From positions 1,240,001 to 1,304,000 of the forward strand of contig JACZZP010000017.1 in NCBI GenBank assembly GCA_015183035.1: 64,000 nucleotides of DNA, written 5' to 3'. The notes beneath the pieces were generated by a model. The model made no database searches and was not told the origin of the DNA. It saw nothing but the letters and a program-made list of their open reading frames with translations. Positions 15,839-24,017 of the stretch are shown here, one piece after another. Positions within the stretch are counted from its first letter, which is position 1. Every line of letters begins with the position of its first letter. The stretch is from Meloidogyne chitwoodi (lineage: Eukaryota > Nematoda > Chromadorea > Rhabditida > Meloidogynidae). The position numbers and the translations under genes were made by a program.

Positions 15839-18031
15839 TTAGTCATCCTCAACGGGTGGATGTTCAGGACAAGTATTCTTTCTTTTAAACCACTCATCGA
15901 TACAACTAAAAGTAATGCATCAAAATACTGTTTAGTAATTTTCCTGGGTGGTGAATATATATTACTCAAACTAATAAAATTTTTAGTTGATTTAAACTAT
16001 GCCATAGCATAAGGAGATTTGTTTAAAAAATACTTATTGTTAGACTAATTGTAAGTTTTGCACTAAAACGGAATAAATAATGATTTCTATACAAAAATAA
16101 TTTGATATTTCGATTCTGGAAATACGAATAAGCGTTTAAAGCTACTCTCCTATGATCAAATTAAAATAAACTTACTTTTTGTGATAAATGCAAAGACACG
16201 GCAATCGAGCAATATTATCACCTTCAGACATATCCTCCAAACAAATGGAGCACTCACCCTTATCGGCAGTCAAAACATCATCTAAAATATAGTTTAATCA
16301 GAAAAGGAATTATCAAAAAACCATTGTATGAAAGTACTGGCCGAGTAAAACACATAACTAAATGTACTTCTACATCTTTTAAAGGCACAATTTTATGGCA
16401 CACTGGACATTTAAGATCACGACCTAAAAGATTTGTTAAAATTCACTAATAAAAATGGAATTTATAGGTTTAAATAGTTTTATTATGAAAAAATAGTCAA
16501 ACATGAAAAATAGTATAAAAAATTTGAATAAATCATTTACCAATCAACTGCAATAGTGGAAGAGAATGCCGCAATCGGCTTAATGCTGATTGCTGTTTTT
16601 GCGTTCCAACTACCCGGATTGAACTGCTAGATGTAGAGTCTGAGGCAGAAAGACTATCTTCCAAACCACGTAAAAGTGCTTCAAGCCTACTATTAGATAG
16701 CAGATCATTTGTAGAAGATGTTGAACTACTAACCAAAGCACGACGAGATCTAAAAATTTTAAAGTGGCAATCTTCACCAATTGGGGCGCCACCCCAAATA
16801 ATCGCAGAGGAATAGTAAAAATGTGTTTTTATGAGTTTTCGAGGGCGCTGATTACGAATCTGATATTTGTTTTTTCTTATCACTAATCCTTATCATTTTA
16901 TCACCCATTGAACTACATGTTGCTCACTAACTCCACACATTGCTGCTTGTGAAAAAGCAGAAATTCCTTGAGCCCAAAAGTATGCGAGCATAACAAACTG
17001 TTTAAGTTCCAAATTGGAGTTGGCAAGAAACGATCCATGACGGAGTGCTAGCTTTCTATTGCATCGTGGAGCCTGCGAGAACAGTGCCAGACAATGCCAT
17101 CTCCTCTACTCACTCTACGATTTTCGCTCATTTGCTGATTACATGATGGGCATAGTGGGGGTACAGACCGTAAAATATTACATTGTTGTAAAAATTGAAT
17201 AACAGATTCCTTTGTATTAATAAGTTGAGTAATTTGGAAAATATCCGATAAAATCTGTGATTTTTAAAATTAGTGATAAAATGATAAGGATTAGTGATAA
17301 GAAAAAACAAATATCAGATTCGTAATCAGCGCCCTCGAAAACCCATAAAAACACATTTTTATTATTCCTTTGCGATTATTTGGGGTGGCGCCCCAATTGG
17401 TGAAGATTGCCTTTAAAGTAATTTGATTAGTAAAAAGAATGATTTAAGAAGGACCTTTGACTTCCACCAAAACGCTGATGATTTCGTGGGTTCCTGTTGT
17501 GAAAAAAAGTGCTACTTAGTGTGGTACCTCCTTCACTATGACGAATATTAGCACGTTGAGCAGAATTTGAAGGTCCGACTGGCGGAGAAATACCTAAAGA
17601 AAATAACAATATGTTGTACTTATTGTCAGAAAAATGCGAAAGCCTTAACAAATAAAGTAAAACCTGAGCTATTAAGGCCTAAATGACTCATCAAAATTGA
17701 AGCAAAATTAAGATCAGCAGCCCCATCTTCCTCACTACGATTATCTTCGTCCGTTGAGGTTCTATTTGAGGGTGAGGAAGAAGAGGTCTAAAAATGAAAA
17801 GTATTTACATATTGTATGATTATTTATTTCAAACCGAATCGTTTTGTTGGAACCTCGAGTGTGAATTATTGTTACTTCTGTGTCTTTGGTGCCTAGATGA
17901 TAAACCGTTAGAAATATCGGAACTAGTACGAGGTCTGTGCTAAAATAAATTTTTTTTAACATTTAAAAATTTGTTTCAAAACATACCGCAACATCAGAAC
18001 CTGGTTGCTGCACTGACGATCTTTGTCCCAT
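15839..18031 (-). CDS. ZNRF1/2-type E3 ubiquitin ligase, 8 exons, about 298 aa
   Basis: Exons in transcription order: 18031-17987, 17939-17835, 17787-17664, 17593-17455, 16749-16541, 16423-16322, 16281-16176, 15905-15839. The protein starts MGQRSS, a good N-myristoylation site like that of vertebrate ZNRF1/2. A long Ser/Asn/Arg-rich linker follows. Near residues 210-240 is the zinc module LKCPVCHKIVP then VHLVMC, continuing into SYNDDVLTADKGEC and the RING (CSICLEDM, RLPCLCIYH, CIDEWF, TCPEHPP). This is the ZNRF order and spacing. ZNRF ligases act on endosomal, lysosomal and plasma membranes and ubiquitinate membrane and signalling proteins. Intron 4 carries a Merlin element (16766-17411). 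The gene has a diverged tandem copy downstream. Confidence 0.92.
16766..17411 (-). mobile_element. Merlin-type element in an intron of the ZNRF gene
   Basis: About 136-base terminal inverted repeats (starting GGCAATCTTCACC) flanked by the 8-base duplication TTTAAAGT (16758-16765 and 17412-17419). The interior keeps N-terminal pieces of a Merlin/ISXO2-like transposase on the - strand. It sits entirely within an intron; both exon boundaries are outside the duplication. The C-terminal catalytic part is absent, so the element is non-autonomous. Confidence 0.85.
16905..17260 (-). pseudogene. Merlin transposase N-terminal remnant (frameshifted)
   Basis: Read on the - strand in more than one frame: FLQQCNILRS, then the zinc-ribbon half LCPSCNQQMSENRR, then GDGIVWHCSR, then RHGSFLANSNLELKQFVML with AYFWAQGISAF. 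This is the N-terminal order of ISXO2/Merlin transposases (zinc ribbon, then a helical region before the DDE core). At least one frameshift breaks it, and no DDE core follows. Confidence 0.7.
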
Positions 18032-19226
18032 TTATTTATAGTCAAGTTGAAAAATTTAAATATTGAAGCAGAAAAATATTACAGCTTCTAATCTATATCG
18101 TAGTATTGACACTTCCTTAAAAATTGAATATTAATACTACATACATATGGATTGTAGGATGGGTGTCCATAGCTGGCTGTTTTTGATCATAAATTTTTCA
18201 TTTATTAACTAATCCGAGCAGTTCTTTCTTAAATGAGGCCCTCGATGAGCGGATTATTTTTGCCAACTGGAATGATATCCGACAGATCATTCAACAAAAA
18301 GTTACAGTTGGATAAAAGATGAAAATATGATCGATCGAATTCTGAAAGTGGATCAGTTTGTTTGAATGCTATATTTTTAAAAATATAACAAACTAGACTT
18401 GATTAAGCACTCAATCCAAACTTTATAAATATGTATATATATTATGTTAAAATACATTTCCAACAATGTCAAAAATTTACTTGCCCTATAAAAAATTGAA
18501 CGCATTTTAGGGATAAACAGAAAACAGTGCAGTCTCTTTATACTGGTAAAGGTATAAAAAATAATAGGCAGATGGATGAAGATTTAAAGAGAGACGTCGA
18601 TGGAACAACGTTAGATGGTCGTTTTAAAAGGGAGGTGCAGGAGTTTAATATGCTGGGACGGCAATCGAATGAGTATTGCACCAAATAAAAAGACGCATAA
18701 ACAATCGATTAGAATTGAAAAAAGTGACAGAAAATATCGGCTGGTGCCGGTCAGTCTGACCTTATATCACAATGGAGTGAAAAAACAAGAATGAAAGACG
18801 GTAACATCATAATTTCGTCGTTAAGATTATTTGGATGAGATTGATGGTTGTTTATCTGCTGTTGGTGAGCATGGTGCGAGGCTAATCTTAACTAGCTTCC
18901 TAAATAGCAGGTTTAAAACAGCTAAATAACTTTTAAGTAAAATTCAGTTTAATTTATAATATGTATGTTGCCAAAAATGCCTGATTTCTGCAATTAATGC
19001 CAGAATAATTTTTAAAACGTCTGATTTTTTAAAGTAATCTGGCATATAAAGAATATGACAAGTATTTACAAAAAATGATTGTAATCCTTAAATAAATATT
19101 AGTTCGTCGATGGTGATATTGACTGCAAATATGTAATATTTAAGTAGTTTTTAGTACGTACATATTATACCATAAATAGAAGTGAAAAAAATGCAATAAA
19201 AATAGTTATGAGATTGTTTTTGCGAG
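18032..19226. other. Intergenic, with short coding-like relics
   Basis: Upstream of the ZNRF gene. Two stretches look like old coding sequence. Near 18205-18320 a frame reads FLNEALDERIIFANWNDI and then stops. A 38-codon open frame at 18572-18688 (+) reads LDGRFKREVQEFNMLGRQS. Neither has splice partners or a recognised family; they may be relics of a gene or transposon. Confidence 0.35.
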
Positions 19227-19234
19227 AAAATACA

Positions 19235-19866
19235 GGCCTAACTACAGTTTCCGTACTTTTTTTGTTTTCGGACGAGTTATATGTCATTCGAAATAGCTCA
19301 TCGAGCTGAGTCGAGTGACATAAAAACTAGTCCGCGGAAACAACTATGGGCTAAGTTACAGACCCCCGAAAATTGAAAAACCATAGGGGGGAGTAAGCTC
19401 ATTTTTGTGGCAAAAAAATAAAATATGAGTATGATAGCTCATTCAAAAGAGCTCTTCGAGACCTATCGAATGAGACCAAAATTGTCGTGATTGGACGATT
19501 TTGAACAAAGTTATGCATGATCGAAGTTTGCTGGAAACACGTCAAACTTGGACCTATTGGGAGTGTTTTATGACTTCTTCATTTGGGAGCCCATCTCTCG
19601 TTGGCTTTTTGTTACATGCGTCATTCTACGGCGCAAATTACAACAAAATAATTTATTCAGTGAAAATAAATGCAGCCGCAGTAATCACTTAAATAACCTT
19701 ACCCCCCCCCCCCCCTATGGTTTTTCAATTTTCGGGGGTCTGTAACTTGGCCCAAAGTTGTTTCCGCGGACTAGTTTTTATGTCATTCGACTCAGCTCGA
19801 TGAGCTCTTTCGAATGACATATAACTCGTCCGAAAACAAAAAAAGTACGGAAACTGTAGTTTAGCC
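19235..19866. mobile_element. Foldback MITE with 8-base target duplication
   Basis: Nearly perfect inverted repeats of about 160 bases (19235 to about 19393 and about 19702 to 19866), starting GGC(C/T)(T/A)AACTACAGTTTCC. They are flanked by AAAATACA at 19227-19234 and 19867-19874. GGC termini and an 8-base duplication match the Merlin elements nearby, but the interior encodes nothing I recognise. A run of about 15 C residues lies at the inner edge of the right arm and may be unreliable in the assembly. Confidence 0.8.
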
Positions 19867-20247
19867 AAAATACATTTTCATTTGAGAAAAATAATAATAC
19901 AACATATGTATGTACATATTATATTTTTTATGTGGGAAAAATAGATTTTACATTAATTTTAATATGTAAAACTTGGGGAACGCAGTCTTTTTAAGAAAAT
20001 TTTGTCCAAACTTCTATGTCATTTTAATTAAACATTAAAATTACAAAAAATTATTAAAAATTTGACAATTATGAAAATATTTTTCAAAAAAATATGGAAA
20101 TCTGATATTAGGAAGCTGATGAAAAAAGCAATCCGTATGAATGACAAGAATCATGTGAAATTTATGACGAAAAGAGTAGGAAAGAGATAAATGCATATAC
20201 CACATAGAAAAGTAGTAAAACAAAAGAATAAAGAGAAAGAGGGTACA

Positions 20248-20297
20248 GCCCGAAAAGGCGCGGCCGAAAAGACGCCGGCCGAAACGGCGCGACTGCC
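20248..20297 (+). repeat. Short G+C-rich tandem repeat
   Basis: About three diverged copies of a unit like CCGAAAAGGCGCGG. It is the most G+C-rich spot in the window and lies just left of the 20398 element. Confidence 0.6.
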
Positions 20298-20527
20298 TTA
20301 CGGCAAAAAAACTACATTTCGTTTACCCGAGCCCACGATTATTTGCCGTTGGGACAAAATGTCGTGCAATTTCGGTCTACGAAATGTCTGGACACGCGGC
20401 TCCATGACTTTTTGTCAATGGACTTTACGTCAACGGACCATCCGTCAATATTTGTTAATGGATTTTAAGTCAACGGACTTTTTGTCAATGACTAAATATG
20501 CATATACATATTTAATTGAGGAGTTTG

Positions 20528-20640
20528 TCTATACATATGTTTGTCCGAGATTTTATAGTAAACTGATTGAGTAGAAATGGGAGCTTTTATATGTGTTTAA
20601 AAGTTCGATACTATATAAACAGCGTATTTTACCATTCTCC
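20528..20640 (+). mobile_element. Helitron-like 5' fragment nested in the composite element
   Basis: Begins TCTATACATATGTTTGTCCG and continues with GATACTATATAAACAGCG, parallel to the first 140 bases of the Helitrons at 11461 and 36561. No hairpin-CTAG 3' end was found, so this is a truncated or captured segment. Confidence 0.55.
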
Positions 20641-20676
20641 TGTTCTACGAGCAGCGCCAACTGTCTGTGACTCAAA

Positions 20677-21500
20677 CGTCTACGAGGAACGTCAACGGTC
20701 AGCTACACTAACGGAGGAAGCTCTATGCAAGGTTTTGCGAGCTACGCTAACGGCGGTGGTGCTTGAGACTAAGGTTTGGCGAGCTACGCTAACGGCGTTG
20801 GTTCTAGAGACTAAGGTTTGGCGAGCTACGCTAACGGCGTTGGTTCTAGAGACTAAGGTTTGGCGAGCTACGCTAACGGCGTTGGTTCTAGAGACTTAGG
20901 TCTTAGGAGCTAAGCTAAGGCGTTTGTTCAATAAACTGGTGTCTTAGGAGCTAAGCTAAGGCGTTAGTTCAATAAACTGGTGTCTTAGGAGCTAAGCTAA
21001 GGCGTTAGTTCAATAAACTGGTGTCTTAGGAGCCACGCTAAGGCGTTAGTTCTATGAGCCAAGGTTCTAGGAGTATGCTAACGACTACAAGATACGCCAA
21101 CGTCTACGAACAACGTCAACGGTCTATGAGCTACGCTAACGCGGTGGTGCTTGAGACTAAGGTTTGGCGAGCTACGCTAACGCGGTGGTGCTTGAGACTA
21201 AGGTTTGGCGAGCTACGCTAACGCGGTGGTGCTTGAGACTAAGGTTTGCAAGCTACGCTAACGGCGTTGGTTCTAGAGACTAAGGTTTGGCGAGCCACGC
21301 TAACGGCGTTGGTTCTAGAGACTTAGGTCTTAGGAGCTAAGCTAAGGCGTTTGTTCAATAAACTGGTGTCTTAGGAGCTAAGCTAAGGCGTTAGTTCAAT
21401 AAACTGGTGTCTTAGGAGCTAAGATAAGGCGTTTGTTCAATAAACTGGTGTCTTAGGAGCCACGCTAAGGCGTTAGTTCTATGAGCCAAGGTTCTAGGAG
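20677..21500 (+). repeat. Tandem array with higher-order duplication
   Basis: Two related monomers alternate. One of about 42 bases contains GCGAGCTACGCTAACGGCG and GAGACTAAGGTTTG. One of about 39 bases contains GTCTTAGGAGCTAAGCTAAG and GTTCAATAAACTG. A block of several copies of the first followed by several of the second occurs twice (about 20677-21069 and 21100-21500), each opened by GTCTACGA(G/A)(G/C)AACGTCAACGGTC and closed by TCTATGAGCCAAGGTTCTAG. The 42-base unit is a multiple of three, which gives a false repetitive open frame. Confidence 0.85.
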
Positions 21501-22012
21501 TCAAGAAAAAAATATAAGGAAAGTACGAGGTACGAGTACGAAGGAAAAAATATGGCTGGTACGAAGTACGAGCAAAATGAAAATTTCCAACCACTGCTTA
21601 AAACTTGACTCATGCTTGATCATGTTTTAATTTCTCTATGTATTGTTTTGTTTGTAAATGTTTTAATTATGTTAGTCTATTCTTTGTAGTTTCTGTTGTG
21701 TTAGACGATTGTAAATTTGGGTATCTGGATGATTATTTCGTTATCTTGTTTGTTTATTTTGTTGGAAATGTTTATATTTATGTATGACTTTATTGTTTAG
21801 ATTATTTTTTTTCTATTTTAAATAATTTGTTTATTGACGAAAAGTCCGTTGACATAAAGTCCAATGACGAAAAGTATTGACGAATGGTCCATTGACGTAA
21901 ATTCCTTGACGAAAAGTCGTGCCACCTGGACACGCATATAATTTAGATAATTTATACTTATGCAAATAATTTATAATTTTACATACATAGCATTAAAATT
22001 TTTTATTCTAAT

Positions 22013-22822
22013 GGCACTTGTCAAGATGGGACGGCTTTTTTTGCGGACTTTTTTTGCGGACAAATTATTTTTTGATTTTATTCACACATATATTTTTCGT
22101 TATTTACAATTTGCGATATCAAATTAAAAAAACAATCATCTCCTCCAAAATGTCGTTTCCAAATAAATTCATGCAAATAACTTTCAAATGTTGTTTCAGC
22201 AGTCCCAAATTCAGTTTTATGTCGGCGTTTCAATTTTTGCCACAGTGACTCGATGTTTTGAGTATGTATTGTTTTATCTTCTTTGCTTACGAATTCAACA
22301 CTATGATTGATCGATTTGTGTTGATATCGACGGCCTTCTCGACCAAAAATACATTATCTTAGAAGGAAATTTTCCAAATGGTATAAAGTACATAATCGGC
22401 AAAATTTACCTGTATCACTTGTTTGAAAGTTAGCTTAAAACCTTTGAAGAAAGTGCCAACCAAAGCCCCTTTTGTTTTTCTACATGTTGTTTTTTTACAA
22501 CGCCATTGTCAATATTGCTTATAATTTTCTTTACGCATTTCTGAGCCACAAATACATGTTCTTGTTTTGTGAAGCATACCAAGACTAGAAAGCCAATGTT
22601 GAAATTCATCATCGGGTAAGCTTATTTTGGTGTATAATTGTAACAAAGTAAAATTTTTAAGAGTTTGAATCATTTTATTGGATAATTGATTAACAAAAAT
22701 ATAAATGACAAAGGTAAAAAACATTTACACATATTTGTTAGTCAAGGTACACTCTTATTGCCTTGGGAAAAAATCAAAAATAATTTGTCCGCAAAAAAAG
22801 CCGTCCCATCTTGACAAGTGCC
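22013..22822 (-). mobile_element. Merlin element with deleted transposase
   Basis: Termini GGCACTTGTCAAGATGGGAC in inverted orientation (about 36 bases), flanked by ATTCTAAT at 22005-22012 and 22823-22830. The subterminal word GCGGACAAATT is shared with the element at 23444. It carries a broken Merlin transposase on the - strand. The right duplication ends one base before the ATG of the gene at 22832. Confidence 0.9.
22078..22673 (-). pseudogene. Merlin (ISXO2-like) transposase, internally deleted
   Basis: From 22673: an N-terminal part with FQHWLSSLGMLHKTRTC and CGSEM, an in-frame TGA, then QWRCKKTTCRK and GTFFKGFKLTFKQVIQ (zinc ribbon plus first helix of the family). After a junction the C-terminus resumes with INHSVEFVSKED, HTQNIESLWQKLKRRH, ESYLHEFIWKRHFG and a TAA stop. 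The middle of the DDE domain, with its first two acidic residues, is missing. It therefore cannot encode an active enzyme. Confidence 0.85.
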
Positions 22823-22831
22823 ATTCTAATT

Positions 22832-23296
22832 ATGGGAGTTGAAAAGTCAGTTGCAGATAATGGGGAAGATCGTTCTACAGAATATTGGTTGTCTCGTAGA
22901 ACTGAAATTGCTTCAGAAATGATGAATAGATTGAATAATTTGGCAAATAATCAAGTATTTTATATTTTTTAAAATATTTTTAAATTATTTTATAGGATCC
23001 ATTACTTAAATATTATACCGATTGGTTAATATCAAGAAGTCGGCGTTTATTTAAAATTAACCGTCAACAGGTTGAATCAGAGGAATGTGAACCATCAAAT
23101 TTATCTTCATATGCGCGCATTCCGTTTAGTTCTGAGACTGAGTTTGTTTTGCTAATTATAATACATAGAAAAGTAAATTTCTTCCTGTGCATATTTTGAA
23201 AATTTTAGGTCAGAGCATCGTTGTCTGTATAAGGAAATTGATGGTTGGAAGAAAAAACTTGAAGAGGAGCGAAATTATTCATTTCACACCGTCTGA
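22832..23296 (+). CDS. Unrecognised small protein, 118 aa
   Basis: Three exons (22832-22954, 22996-23141, 23209-23296) with good GT...AG sites and consistent phase, ending TGA. The product is hydrophilic and charged, with a basic central segment (WLISRSRRLFKINRQQ) and a charged C-terminal helix (EIDGWKKKLEEERNYS). There is no signal peptide or membrane segment. The first ATG lies one base after the Merlin target duplication, so any promoter or 5' exon was separated from it by the insertion. An undetected 5' exon is possible. I do not recognise the family. Confidence 0.6.
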
Positions 23297-23443
23297 TGGT
23301 TTAAACCAAAATAATGCTTAAAATTGAAAGACCTTTTTTGGATTTTAATGGTACCATTTTAGTTTGGTTTTTTTATTATTTTAAAAAATATTTCTTTACA
23401 TAGTATGTATAATATAAATTTTTCTTTTTACAAGGGTTATAAA

Positions 23444-24009
23444 GGTACTTACGTATTATCCCTACGCACTTTTGCGGACAAAGTTTTTGCGGACAAATTT
23501 ATTTATTTATATAAAACAATTACAAAAAATCAATCCAATGCCCAATATTTTCCCCAAGCAAGTATAATTTCTTCAAAAACGTCTCCATCACCAATCATTT
23601 TCCTCCACATAAACTCAGCAAAATAACTCTCTAAATGATGACGTGCTGTACCTCGATGCTTCTTATTACGCCATTTGGCACTCCCAAACTGGACGTTGTT
23701 TGTGATAAAGTTTCATTTCATGTCCATCGCGACAAACTCTAGTTTTGTGTAGAAGACCACGATCTTGTAAGAATTCGATGGCATCTTTTTCAGTTGTTGG
23801 CAAATCCCAAATTTTCATTATAAAAAAATAGATAATAAACTGTAATAGAAATGGTAAAATAACATTTATTCTTAACTTTCATATTTATTATCCATCAAAT
23901 TTAATTTTGAATTTGAGTGACAACTATATTTGAAGGAAGGAGGAAAATAAATAAATTTGTCCGCAAAAACTTTGTCCGCAAAAGTGCGTAGGGATAATAC
24001 GTAAGTACC
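23444..24009 (-). mobile_element. Merlin element, short internally deleted copy
   Basis: About 60-base inverted repeats starting GGTACTTACGTATTATCCC, containing two GCGGACAAA words, flanked by GTTATAAA at 23436-23443 and 24010-24017. It encloses a two-part transposase remnant on the - strand. Confidence 0.9.
23530..23818 (-). pseudogene. Merlin transposase remnant: N- and C-terminal parts fused by deletion
   Basis: Starts at ATG 23818: IWDLPTTEKDAIEFLQDRG, LLHKTRVC, GHEMKLYHKQRPVWEC, then a stop. Overlapping in another frame the C-terminal part follows: KKHRGTARHHLESYFAEFMW and GDGDVFEEIILAWGKY, then TGA at 23530. The whole DDE core between them is missing. Confidence 0.8.
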
Positions 24010-24017
24010 GTTATAAA

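Follow-up and report, generated by a model that had tools for sequence, protein, structure and literature searches.

Five mobile elements, here called E1 to E5, stand side by side within 7.2 kb of a 64,000-nucleotide stretch of the Meloidogyne chitwoodi genome (the window, the whole stretch that was analysed), and the preliminary description had classed all of them as Merlin-type insertions. The locus raises the question of whether this holds for each of the five, and whether they arrived independently. The reading that we consider likely is that of four Merlin insertions beside one probable Mutator/foldback-like (Tm1-like) element, five independent insertions in all. Merlin elements, whose first description is credited in PMC8101967 to Feschotte 2004, are defined in the available sections of that article by 5'-GG ends, inverted repeats of 24-462 bp and 8- or 9-bp duplications; several unlike Merlin families in one genome have previously been reported, according to the same sections.

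Five elements and their coding remnants

Exact 8- or 9-bp duplications and terminal inverted repeats were found at all five positions (Table 1), exactly as they had been described. A blind scan of the 64-kb window for GG...CC ends with an exact 8- or 9-bp duplication returned the same five elements and one trivial match within E1's own repeat, with no matches in the reversed window and one match in total in 20 mononucleotide shuffles. No tRNA or Rfam match was obtained in scans of the window.

Table 1. Positions of the elements, their parts and the repeat hit by E3 in the window.
Feature	Positions	Strand	Description
E1 with duplications	16758..17419	.	646-bp Merlin deletion derivative, element 16766-17411; 139-nt inverted ends with 3 mismatches; duplication TTTAAAGT
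E1 coding remnants	16893..17263	-	zinc-ribbon part 17048-17263; helix-turn-helix part 16893-17105
E2 with duplications	19227..19874	.	632-bp non-coding Merlin-related element 19235-19866; inverted ends of about 157 nt, 96% identity; duplication AAAATACA
Repeat with right end hit by E3	20295..20397	+	dispersed repeat of about 103 bp; copies elsewhere without E3
E3 with duplications	20389..21935	.	1,529-bp non-coding element 20398-21926; duplication TGGACACGC; probable Mutator/foldback
E3 left end	20406..20490	.	6.0 copies of 15-bp unit GACTTTTTGTCAATG
E3 interior	20728..21500	.	41-42-bp tandem-repeat arrays
E3 right end	21833..21918	.	5.9 copies of 15-bp unit
E4 with duplications	22005..22830	.	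810-bp Merlin deletion derivative 22013-22822; 36-nt perfect inverted ends; duplication ATTCTAAT
E4 coding remnants	22078..22724	-	N-terminal part 22509-22724; catalytic C-terminal part 22078-22353 (DDE_Tnp_IS1595)
E5 with duplications	23436..24017	.	566-bp Merlin deletion derivative 23444-24009; 65-nt perfect inverted ends; duplication GTTATAAA
E5 coding remnants	23530..23878	-	N-terminal piece 23666-23878; C-terminal piece 23530-23712

Open reading frames of at least 50 aa were searched with a profile built from four Merlin proteins of the same genome, none of them from E1, E4 or E5. Six of the 267 frames in the window scored above threshold, two each in E1, E4 and E5, and the next best reached E 0.78, which bears out the transposase pieces previously claimed for these three elements. 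The E1 remnants (E 1.6e-10 and 4.8e-11) represent the N-terminal half only, the catalytic half being absent, and their naming as zinc-ribbon and helix-turn-helix parts is based on weak, sub-cut-off Pfam matches. The C-terminal and N-terminal remnants of E4 matched at E 6.1e-23 and 0.0043, those of E5 at 2e-9 and 0.00025, respectively. The Pfam cut-off for DDE_Tnp_IS1595 was passed by E4 only (28 vs 27 bits), E1 and E5 being recovered only with the genome's own Merlin profile. E2 and E3 had been described as lacking a transposase; in agreement with this, none of their frames of at least 50 aa matched the Merlin profile above threshold, and neither four E2 frames nor six frames in or overlapping E3 gave an above-cut-off Pfam match.

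Merlin families represented by E1, E2, E4 and E5

The assignment of E1, E4 and E5 to Merlin is supported by their coding remnants, GG ends, inverted repeats and 8-bp duplications, and for E5 additionally by its longer copy L107. The duplication is exactly 8 bp in most pairings of left and right ends of these families: in 21 of 28 for E1 (9 bp in one), in 19 of 21 for E4 and in 9 of 13 for E5. L107 is a 1,256-bp copy of the E5 family with E5's own ends and a AATATTTC duplication; it contains most of the transposase reading, interrupted by stops, including counterparts of both E5 coding pieces, and its Pfam match is weak (17.5 bits vs a cut-off of 27). E5 itself is identical in sequence to two copies elsewhere in the genome.

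E2, for which the preliminary description had only the ends as a tie to Merlin, was assigned to it because sequence from its interior and its subterminal regions aligns with a complete, PF12762-coding Merlin element of 2,192 bp from the same genome, and this sequence-based assignment is likewise supported. Identity to the 2,192-bp element is 86% across 434 bp and 79-82% in the subterminal regions, with no match in the outermost 43 bp. GG ends and an 8-bp duplication were present in all seven fetched E2 copies, and the duplication was exactly 8 bp in six of nine looser pairings.

Four copies of the 2,192-bp element were fetched, of which three are identical over 2,192 bp and the fourth has 3 differences, and they bear four different 8-bp duplications. 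The gene is predicted to have two exons, a 47-nt GT-AG intron and a 357-aa product, with an open frame in 4/4 copies. Its transposase has 348 homologues at E<=0.001; among 25 aligned relatives, the D, D, E blocks are kept in most and a CxxC...WxC zinc-ribbon-like N-terminal pattern is the majority state, and none of the 25 matched the Pfam zinc-ribbon model at E 0.01. Given identical copies with different duplications and four apparently intact frames, Merlin appears to have moved recently in this genome. No full-length parent of E1 or E4 was seen among the genome copies listed.

Assignment of E3 and independence of the insertions

E3 also has GG ends and a 9-bp duplication. Its inverted ends are imperfect, with 11 of the 16 outermost bases pairing, followed by about 100 nt of repeats; the outer bases are unlike each other (GGCTCCAT vs GGTGGCAC), with the 15-bp repeats behind. 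We set E3 apart from Merlin because of these ends and because 9-bp duplications prevail among E3-type copies: the length is exactly 9 bp in 10 of 16, exactly 8 in 3, and 3 have no duplication, versus 59 of 76 pairings with exactly 8 bp, 1 with exactly 9 and 16 with none in the Merlin families (Fisher test on pairings having a duplication, p = 4.8e-9). The right ends of two E3-type copies, L092 and L093, were placed by a scan for an 8-, 9- or 10-bp duplication; without both, the 9-bp count is 8 of 14 and p = 1.3e-7. The 16 Merlin pairings without duplication were kept in the count, some of them being chance pairings from a loose end match (<=4 mismatches); the window-repeating loci L009 and L039 and loci of <500 bases were omitted, and repeated rows counted once. 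The start of one E3-type copy, C4, was set one base from its initial placement in accordance with the end-pattern search, and a set of 58 elements chosen by their duplications does not enter the counts.

Coding candidates for the E3 type were examined individually. A PF12762 gene in L069, considered as a sign that E3 is Merlin, lies within an inner element of 1,443 bp that is bounded by 163-nt ends and an 8-bp duplication of its own; the nesting is judged from these features because the search for an empty site gave only 15-bp matches. A MULE gene in L090, considered as a sign of Mutator, is also nested, the E3-type copy L091 carrying GCATAACTGG once as the empty site. The ends of this nested MULE element are like those of E3 in design only (alignment score 21 vs a shuffled mean of 23), and of the 26 MULE matches the remaining 25 are all 38 kb or more away from every one of 97 matches to the E3 end pattern. 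Two loci with variant E3 ends, L092 and L093, were inspected downstream for a coding partner; both proved to be short E3-type copies, and an element flanked by an 8-bp duplication is nested in L093. Among the E3-type copies listed, none had a transposase within ends of the E3 type that did not sit in a nested element, although a rare coding copy may have escaped these listings, and a second search with the E3 ends found no coding partner.

In the available sections of PMC3169594, Tm1 is described as a root-knot nematode Mutator/foldback family with mostly 9-bp (8-10) duplications, unlike outer motifs and tandem-repeat ends of about 14 bp. E3 shares with Tm1 the mostly 9-bp duplications, short unlike outer motifs, repeat ends of about 14-15 bp, non-coding copies and nested insertions, but has 41-42-bp internal arrays and no transposase-bearing copy with E3 ends was found. 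Six exact Tm1 motif strings (A1, A2, C, D) were absent from both strands of E3, so that it is called Tm1-like in design and not filed as Tm1. Judged from these sequence features, E3 is probably a Mutator/foldback element and not Merlin.

That all five elements are Merlin, E3 representing a family whose ends are imperfect, whose interior holds tandem repeats and whose target stagger is 9 bp, is unlikely. E3 does begin with GG, 8- or 9-bp duplications occur in Merlin, some Merlin families combine imperfect ends with tandem repeats (PMC8101967, available sections), and the copies listed revealed no transposase, whatever its kind, for the E3 type; yet the 8- versus 9-bp contrast, the Tm1-like 15-bp-repeat ends and the assignment of the L069 Merlin gene to an inner element all speak for separation. 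The claim that the whole cluster is of Merlin type is supported for E1, E2, E4 and E5 and is probably wrong for E3. As hAT and P elements likewise make 8-bp duplications, the four elements with that duplication length might instead belong to one of these superfamilies, their coding remnants having been misread. This is scarcely credible in view of the Merlin-profile matches in E1, E4 and E5, of L107 and of the match of E2 to a PF12762-coding element. Moreover, when the seven coding pieces of E1, E4 and E5 were compared with Pfam by hmmscan, no transposase of another kind was named, and GG ends are a Merlin trait (PMC8101967, available sections).

Very improbable, too, is an origin of the cluster through a segmental duplication or as a single composite element, in which case the five would not be independent. 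The crowding would fit such an origin, as no 7.25-kb place among 193 listed outside copies holds more than two of the five families. This statistic, however, is exploratory, based on the start positions of 198 copies, up to about 40 per family, and is biased by this ceiling and by the choice of families that occur here, and the enrichment of inter-family neighbours elsewhere is mild (15 pairs within 10 kb vs a random mean of 6.4; highest of 400 trials, 14). Each element shows a duplication, ends and a genome-wide family of its own, and separate duplications were also seen at most of the other copies examined. When the flanks of a nested E1-type element are joined, they match L022 and L030 at 58/58 bases, with the target present once; the joined flanks of a nested E5-type element match L040, L041, L042 and L044 at 58/58, and copies of the repeat hit by E3 stand elsewhere without it. 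For the E1 insertion of the window itself, the sequence of the joined flanks occurs only at this locus, and no empty counterpart was found. With these matched empty sites of relatives and the E3-free target repeats, the earlier statement that several families landed side by side is well supported.

Proposed mechanism and relation to known systems

In the preferred reading, four Merlin elements and one Tm1-like element would have entered the stretch by five independent cut-and-paste insertions. Internal deletions would have taken most of the transposase gene in E1, E4 and E5 and all of it in E2, the inverted ends being retained. A Merlin transposase from elsewhere may bind the GG-starting ends and excise the element, and insertion at an 8-base staggered target cut, followed by repair, would give the 8-bp duplications. 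E3 would have been moved by another transposase making a 9-base stagger. The boundaries, duplications, coding remnants, the longer parent form of E5, the empty sites of relatives and the identical recent copies are observed; we infer which transposase moves which family, the mobilisation in trans and the superfamily of E3. A still-mobile Merlin system, in which an autonomous 2,192-bp element with intact-looking copies and non-autonomous families, amplified recently enough for copies at different sites to be identical, exist beside a separate Tm1-like family, is plausible but put forward tentatively; if true, it would show an animal Merlin active in its natural setting.

The result is solid, though for the most part ordinary. 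The elements are good markers of recent change in a small nematode genome, and identical copies with different duplications make Merlin mobility testable between isolates. The 8- vs 9-bp contrast is a warning that GG ends by themselves may be insufficient to recognise Merlin, and the E3 transposase, if found, would tell whether foldback-type elements here are Mutator.

A literature search for Merlin MITEs in Meloidogyne, with subscription journals mostly outside its scope, gave no apparent description among the matches listed. Merlin had been called a less studied class in plant-parasitic nematodes, a description that holds only in part: in the available sections of a 2024 survey of such nematodes (PMC11118728), Merlin is one of the superfamilies named as widespread and most predominant. 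With the Merlin superfamily at large, the elements share GG ends, inverted repeats that are tens to hundreds of bp long, 8-bp duplications and DDE_Tnp_IS1595 with D, D, E; they differ in being deletion derivatives (E1, E4 and E5) or non-coding (E2), and in the N-terminal CxxC...WxC pattern. Bacterial IS1595/IS1016 share the PF12762 catalytic domain and the 8-bp duplication (PMC8101967, available sections), whereas an intron is predicted in the full element here, and non-autonomous copies make up most of those seen.

Insertion boundaries and Merlin affinities

The window (C9:1240001-1304000; 22.6% G+C) was compared with loci (L numbers) fetched from the same genome (47,477,280 bases, 30 contigs). 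The preliminary description had listed five Merlin-type insertions of several families, E1 to E5, and their coordinates and duplications proved exact. A blind scan of the window for GG...CC ends bordered by a duplication of 8 or 9 bp returned all five and one trivial match within the inverted repeat of E1, while the same scan gave 0 hits in the reversed window and 1 in 20 mononucleotide shuffles. In an inverted-repeat search (876 pairs in all), E1, E2, E4 and E5 accounted for four of the 25 longest pairs shown; the remaining 21 were 70-75% alike, those printed being A+T-rich.

Features located in the window and in loci fetched from the same genome
Feature	Location	Description
E1	window 16766-17411	insertion
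E2	window 19235-19866	insertion
E3	window 20398-21926	insertion
E4	window 22013-22822	insertion
E5	window 23444-24009	insertion
~103-bp dispersed repeat	window 20295-20397	331 first-look candidates in genome, 40 scored; inverted partial copy often adjoins
14-bp tandem repeats	window 20250-20291	left of E3; CCGAAAAGGCGCGG, 2.9 copies
2,192-bp Merlin element	C3:1620650, C8:904351, C25:357310, C28:976984	L002-L005, four fetched copies
Inner Merlin element	L069:860-2302	1,443-bp member of a further Merlin family, bounded by 163-nt perfect inverted ends and an 8-bp duplication; pair of long transposase ORFs with putative intron
Inner Mutator-like element	L090:574-2980	FLYWCH and MULE (Mutator-like) domains, 167-nt ends
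Zinc-ribbon-like pattern	L107:175-756	

E1, E4 and E5 are Merlin derivatives, as had been proposed. Against a profile built from four Merlin proteins located elsewhere in the genome, six of the 267 window ORFs of at least 50 aa exceeded the threshold, with E between 6.1e-23 and 0.0043; E1, E4 and E5 hold two apiece, and the next-best ORF was at E 0.78. Among the coding pieces of the three elements, only E4 passed the Pfam cut-off. The remnants in E4 and E5 comprise an N-terminal part and a C-terminal catalytic part. E1 retains the N-terminal half of the transposase only, so that its assignment to Merlin depends on this half together with the ends and the duplication. A 1,256-bp copy of the E5 family (L107) combines E5's ends and an 8-bp duplication with most of the transposase reading, interrupted by stops, which makes E5 a Merlin element shortened by internal deletion; two ORFs of L107 matched the IS1595 zinc-ribbon and catalytic models weakly, below the cut-offs. 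In L107 and 25 aligned Merlin relatives, a CxxC...WxC zinc-ribbon-like N-terminal pattern was seen as majority consensus; PF12760 matched L107 weakly (E 0.0055, below cut-off) and, at E 0.01, 0/25 of the relatives.

Judged by similarity, E2 is Merlin-related, in agreement with its earlier assignment: it matches a complete 2,192-bp Merlin element of the same genome at 86% over 434 bp and at 79-82% in the subterminal regions, with no match in its outer 43 bp. Three of the four fetched copies of this element are identical over 2,192 bp and the fourth has 3 differences, each with its own, different 8-bp duplication. All four keep a two-exon frame with a predicted 47-nt GT-AG intron; the gene is apparently intact. 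Counted from the first methionine, its predicted product has 357 residues, and 348 homologues were found for it at E <= 0.001. Most of the 120 homologues listed carry PF12762 (DDE_Tnp_IS1595, the Merlin catalytic domain), and proteins named from Meloidogyne hapla, Heterodera trifolii and Bursaphelenchus xylophilus are included; of 25 homologues drawn from these 120 and aligned, most keep the D, D and E blocks and 24 match PF12762.

Superfamily of E3

E3 is probably something other than Merlin, and here the preliminary assignment gives way. Exact duplications in 16 E3-type copies were of 9 bp in ten, of 8 bp in three and lacking in three, one of the last having 9 bp with one mismatch; in two of the ten the end was placed by a scan for duplications (8/14 without both). 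In contrast, 76 pairings of the Merlin families, with ends located independently of the duplication, gave exactly 8 bp in 59, 9 bp in 1 and none in 16 (p = 4.8e-9; 1.3e-7 without the two scan-placed copies). The ends of E3, with unlike outer bases followed by six 15-bp tandem units, follow the design published for Tm1, a Mutator/foldback family of root-knot nematodes. According to PMC3169594, most Tm1 duplications are of 9 bp, the two 7-bp outer motifs differ from each other and accompany repeats of ~14 bp, and the transposase is a MULE type resembling Phantom. E3 thus resembles Tm1 in duplication length, outer bases and short tandem-repeat ends, but lacks its motif letters. A Merlin origin of E3 is unlikely, yet we retain it, since Merlin elements can have tandem repeats, ends that are imperfect and duplications of 9 bp (PMC8101967).

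Two genes within E3-type copies were considered as E3 parents and rejected: the Merlin gene in L069 and the MULE gene in L090 each sit in an inner element with its own ends and duplication. L091 is a copy without the nested element of L090 and has the target GCATAACTGG once. The ends of that nested element share E3's design (14-bp period) but not its letters. The 14-bp repeats left of E3 are possibly the end of another foldback-type element.

Empty sites and recency of movement

The insertions were real events. In L031, an E1-type element lies inside another with CGAATCTG flanking both sides; the joined flanks, containing a single target, agree with L022 and L030 at 58/58 bases, and 1 to 5 mismatches separate them from L012 and L010. 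Likewise, an E5-type element lies within an E4-type one in L047, flanked by AAATTTCC, and the joined flanks match L040, L041, L042 and L044 at 58/58 and L049 at 56. For the inner Merlin element of L069 an empty site was sought and not found. E3's target is the right end of the 103-bp dispersed repeat, of which five of eight fetched copies have TGGACACG once at that end and continue without E3, one of them with the full TGGACACGC; the letters are altered in the other three, and none of the eight has them twice.

Comparison of copies shows that Merlin-type elements moved recently. Two other copies of E5 are identical over 566 bp with other duplications and a third has 2 differences, while two more fetched copies sharing its ends differ at 52 and 82 positions. 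Of the seven E2-family copies fetched, four show no difference over 630 bp and carry four different duplications, and in the E4 family three copies with three duplications are identical over 670 bp, a fourth having 1 difference. Other subfamilies are older, e.g. the 441-bp E1-type copies, which differ pairwise at 0 to 47 positions. Two identical E2-family copies, L094 (C14) and L095 (C3), share the duplication GAATTTTT and possibly represent a duplicated or haplotype contig instead of two insertions.

Novelty and clustering of the families

The window families are new, and the kinds they belong to are already known. No description of them was apparent in the accessible portions of the literature on Merlin in Meloidogyne, nematodes and MITEs and on M. 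chitwoodi transposable elements. In the nematodes surveyed by PMC11118728, Merlin is one of the superfamilies named as most predominant and widespread, and coexistence of unlike Merlin families within one genome is reported in PMC8101967.

Among the 193 copies listed outside the window, copies from at most two of the five families fall within any 7.25-kb place; when all 198 listed copies were placed at random, 400 trials gave at most three families per place; this count is based on the copies listed, with families chosen since they meet here. Inter-family neighbours outside the window are mildly enriched, with 5 pairs within 2 kb (random mean 1.2; highest of 400 trials 5) and 15 within 10 kb (mean 6.4; highest 14). 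A gene-poor landing zone would be a candidate cause of this enrichment.
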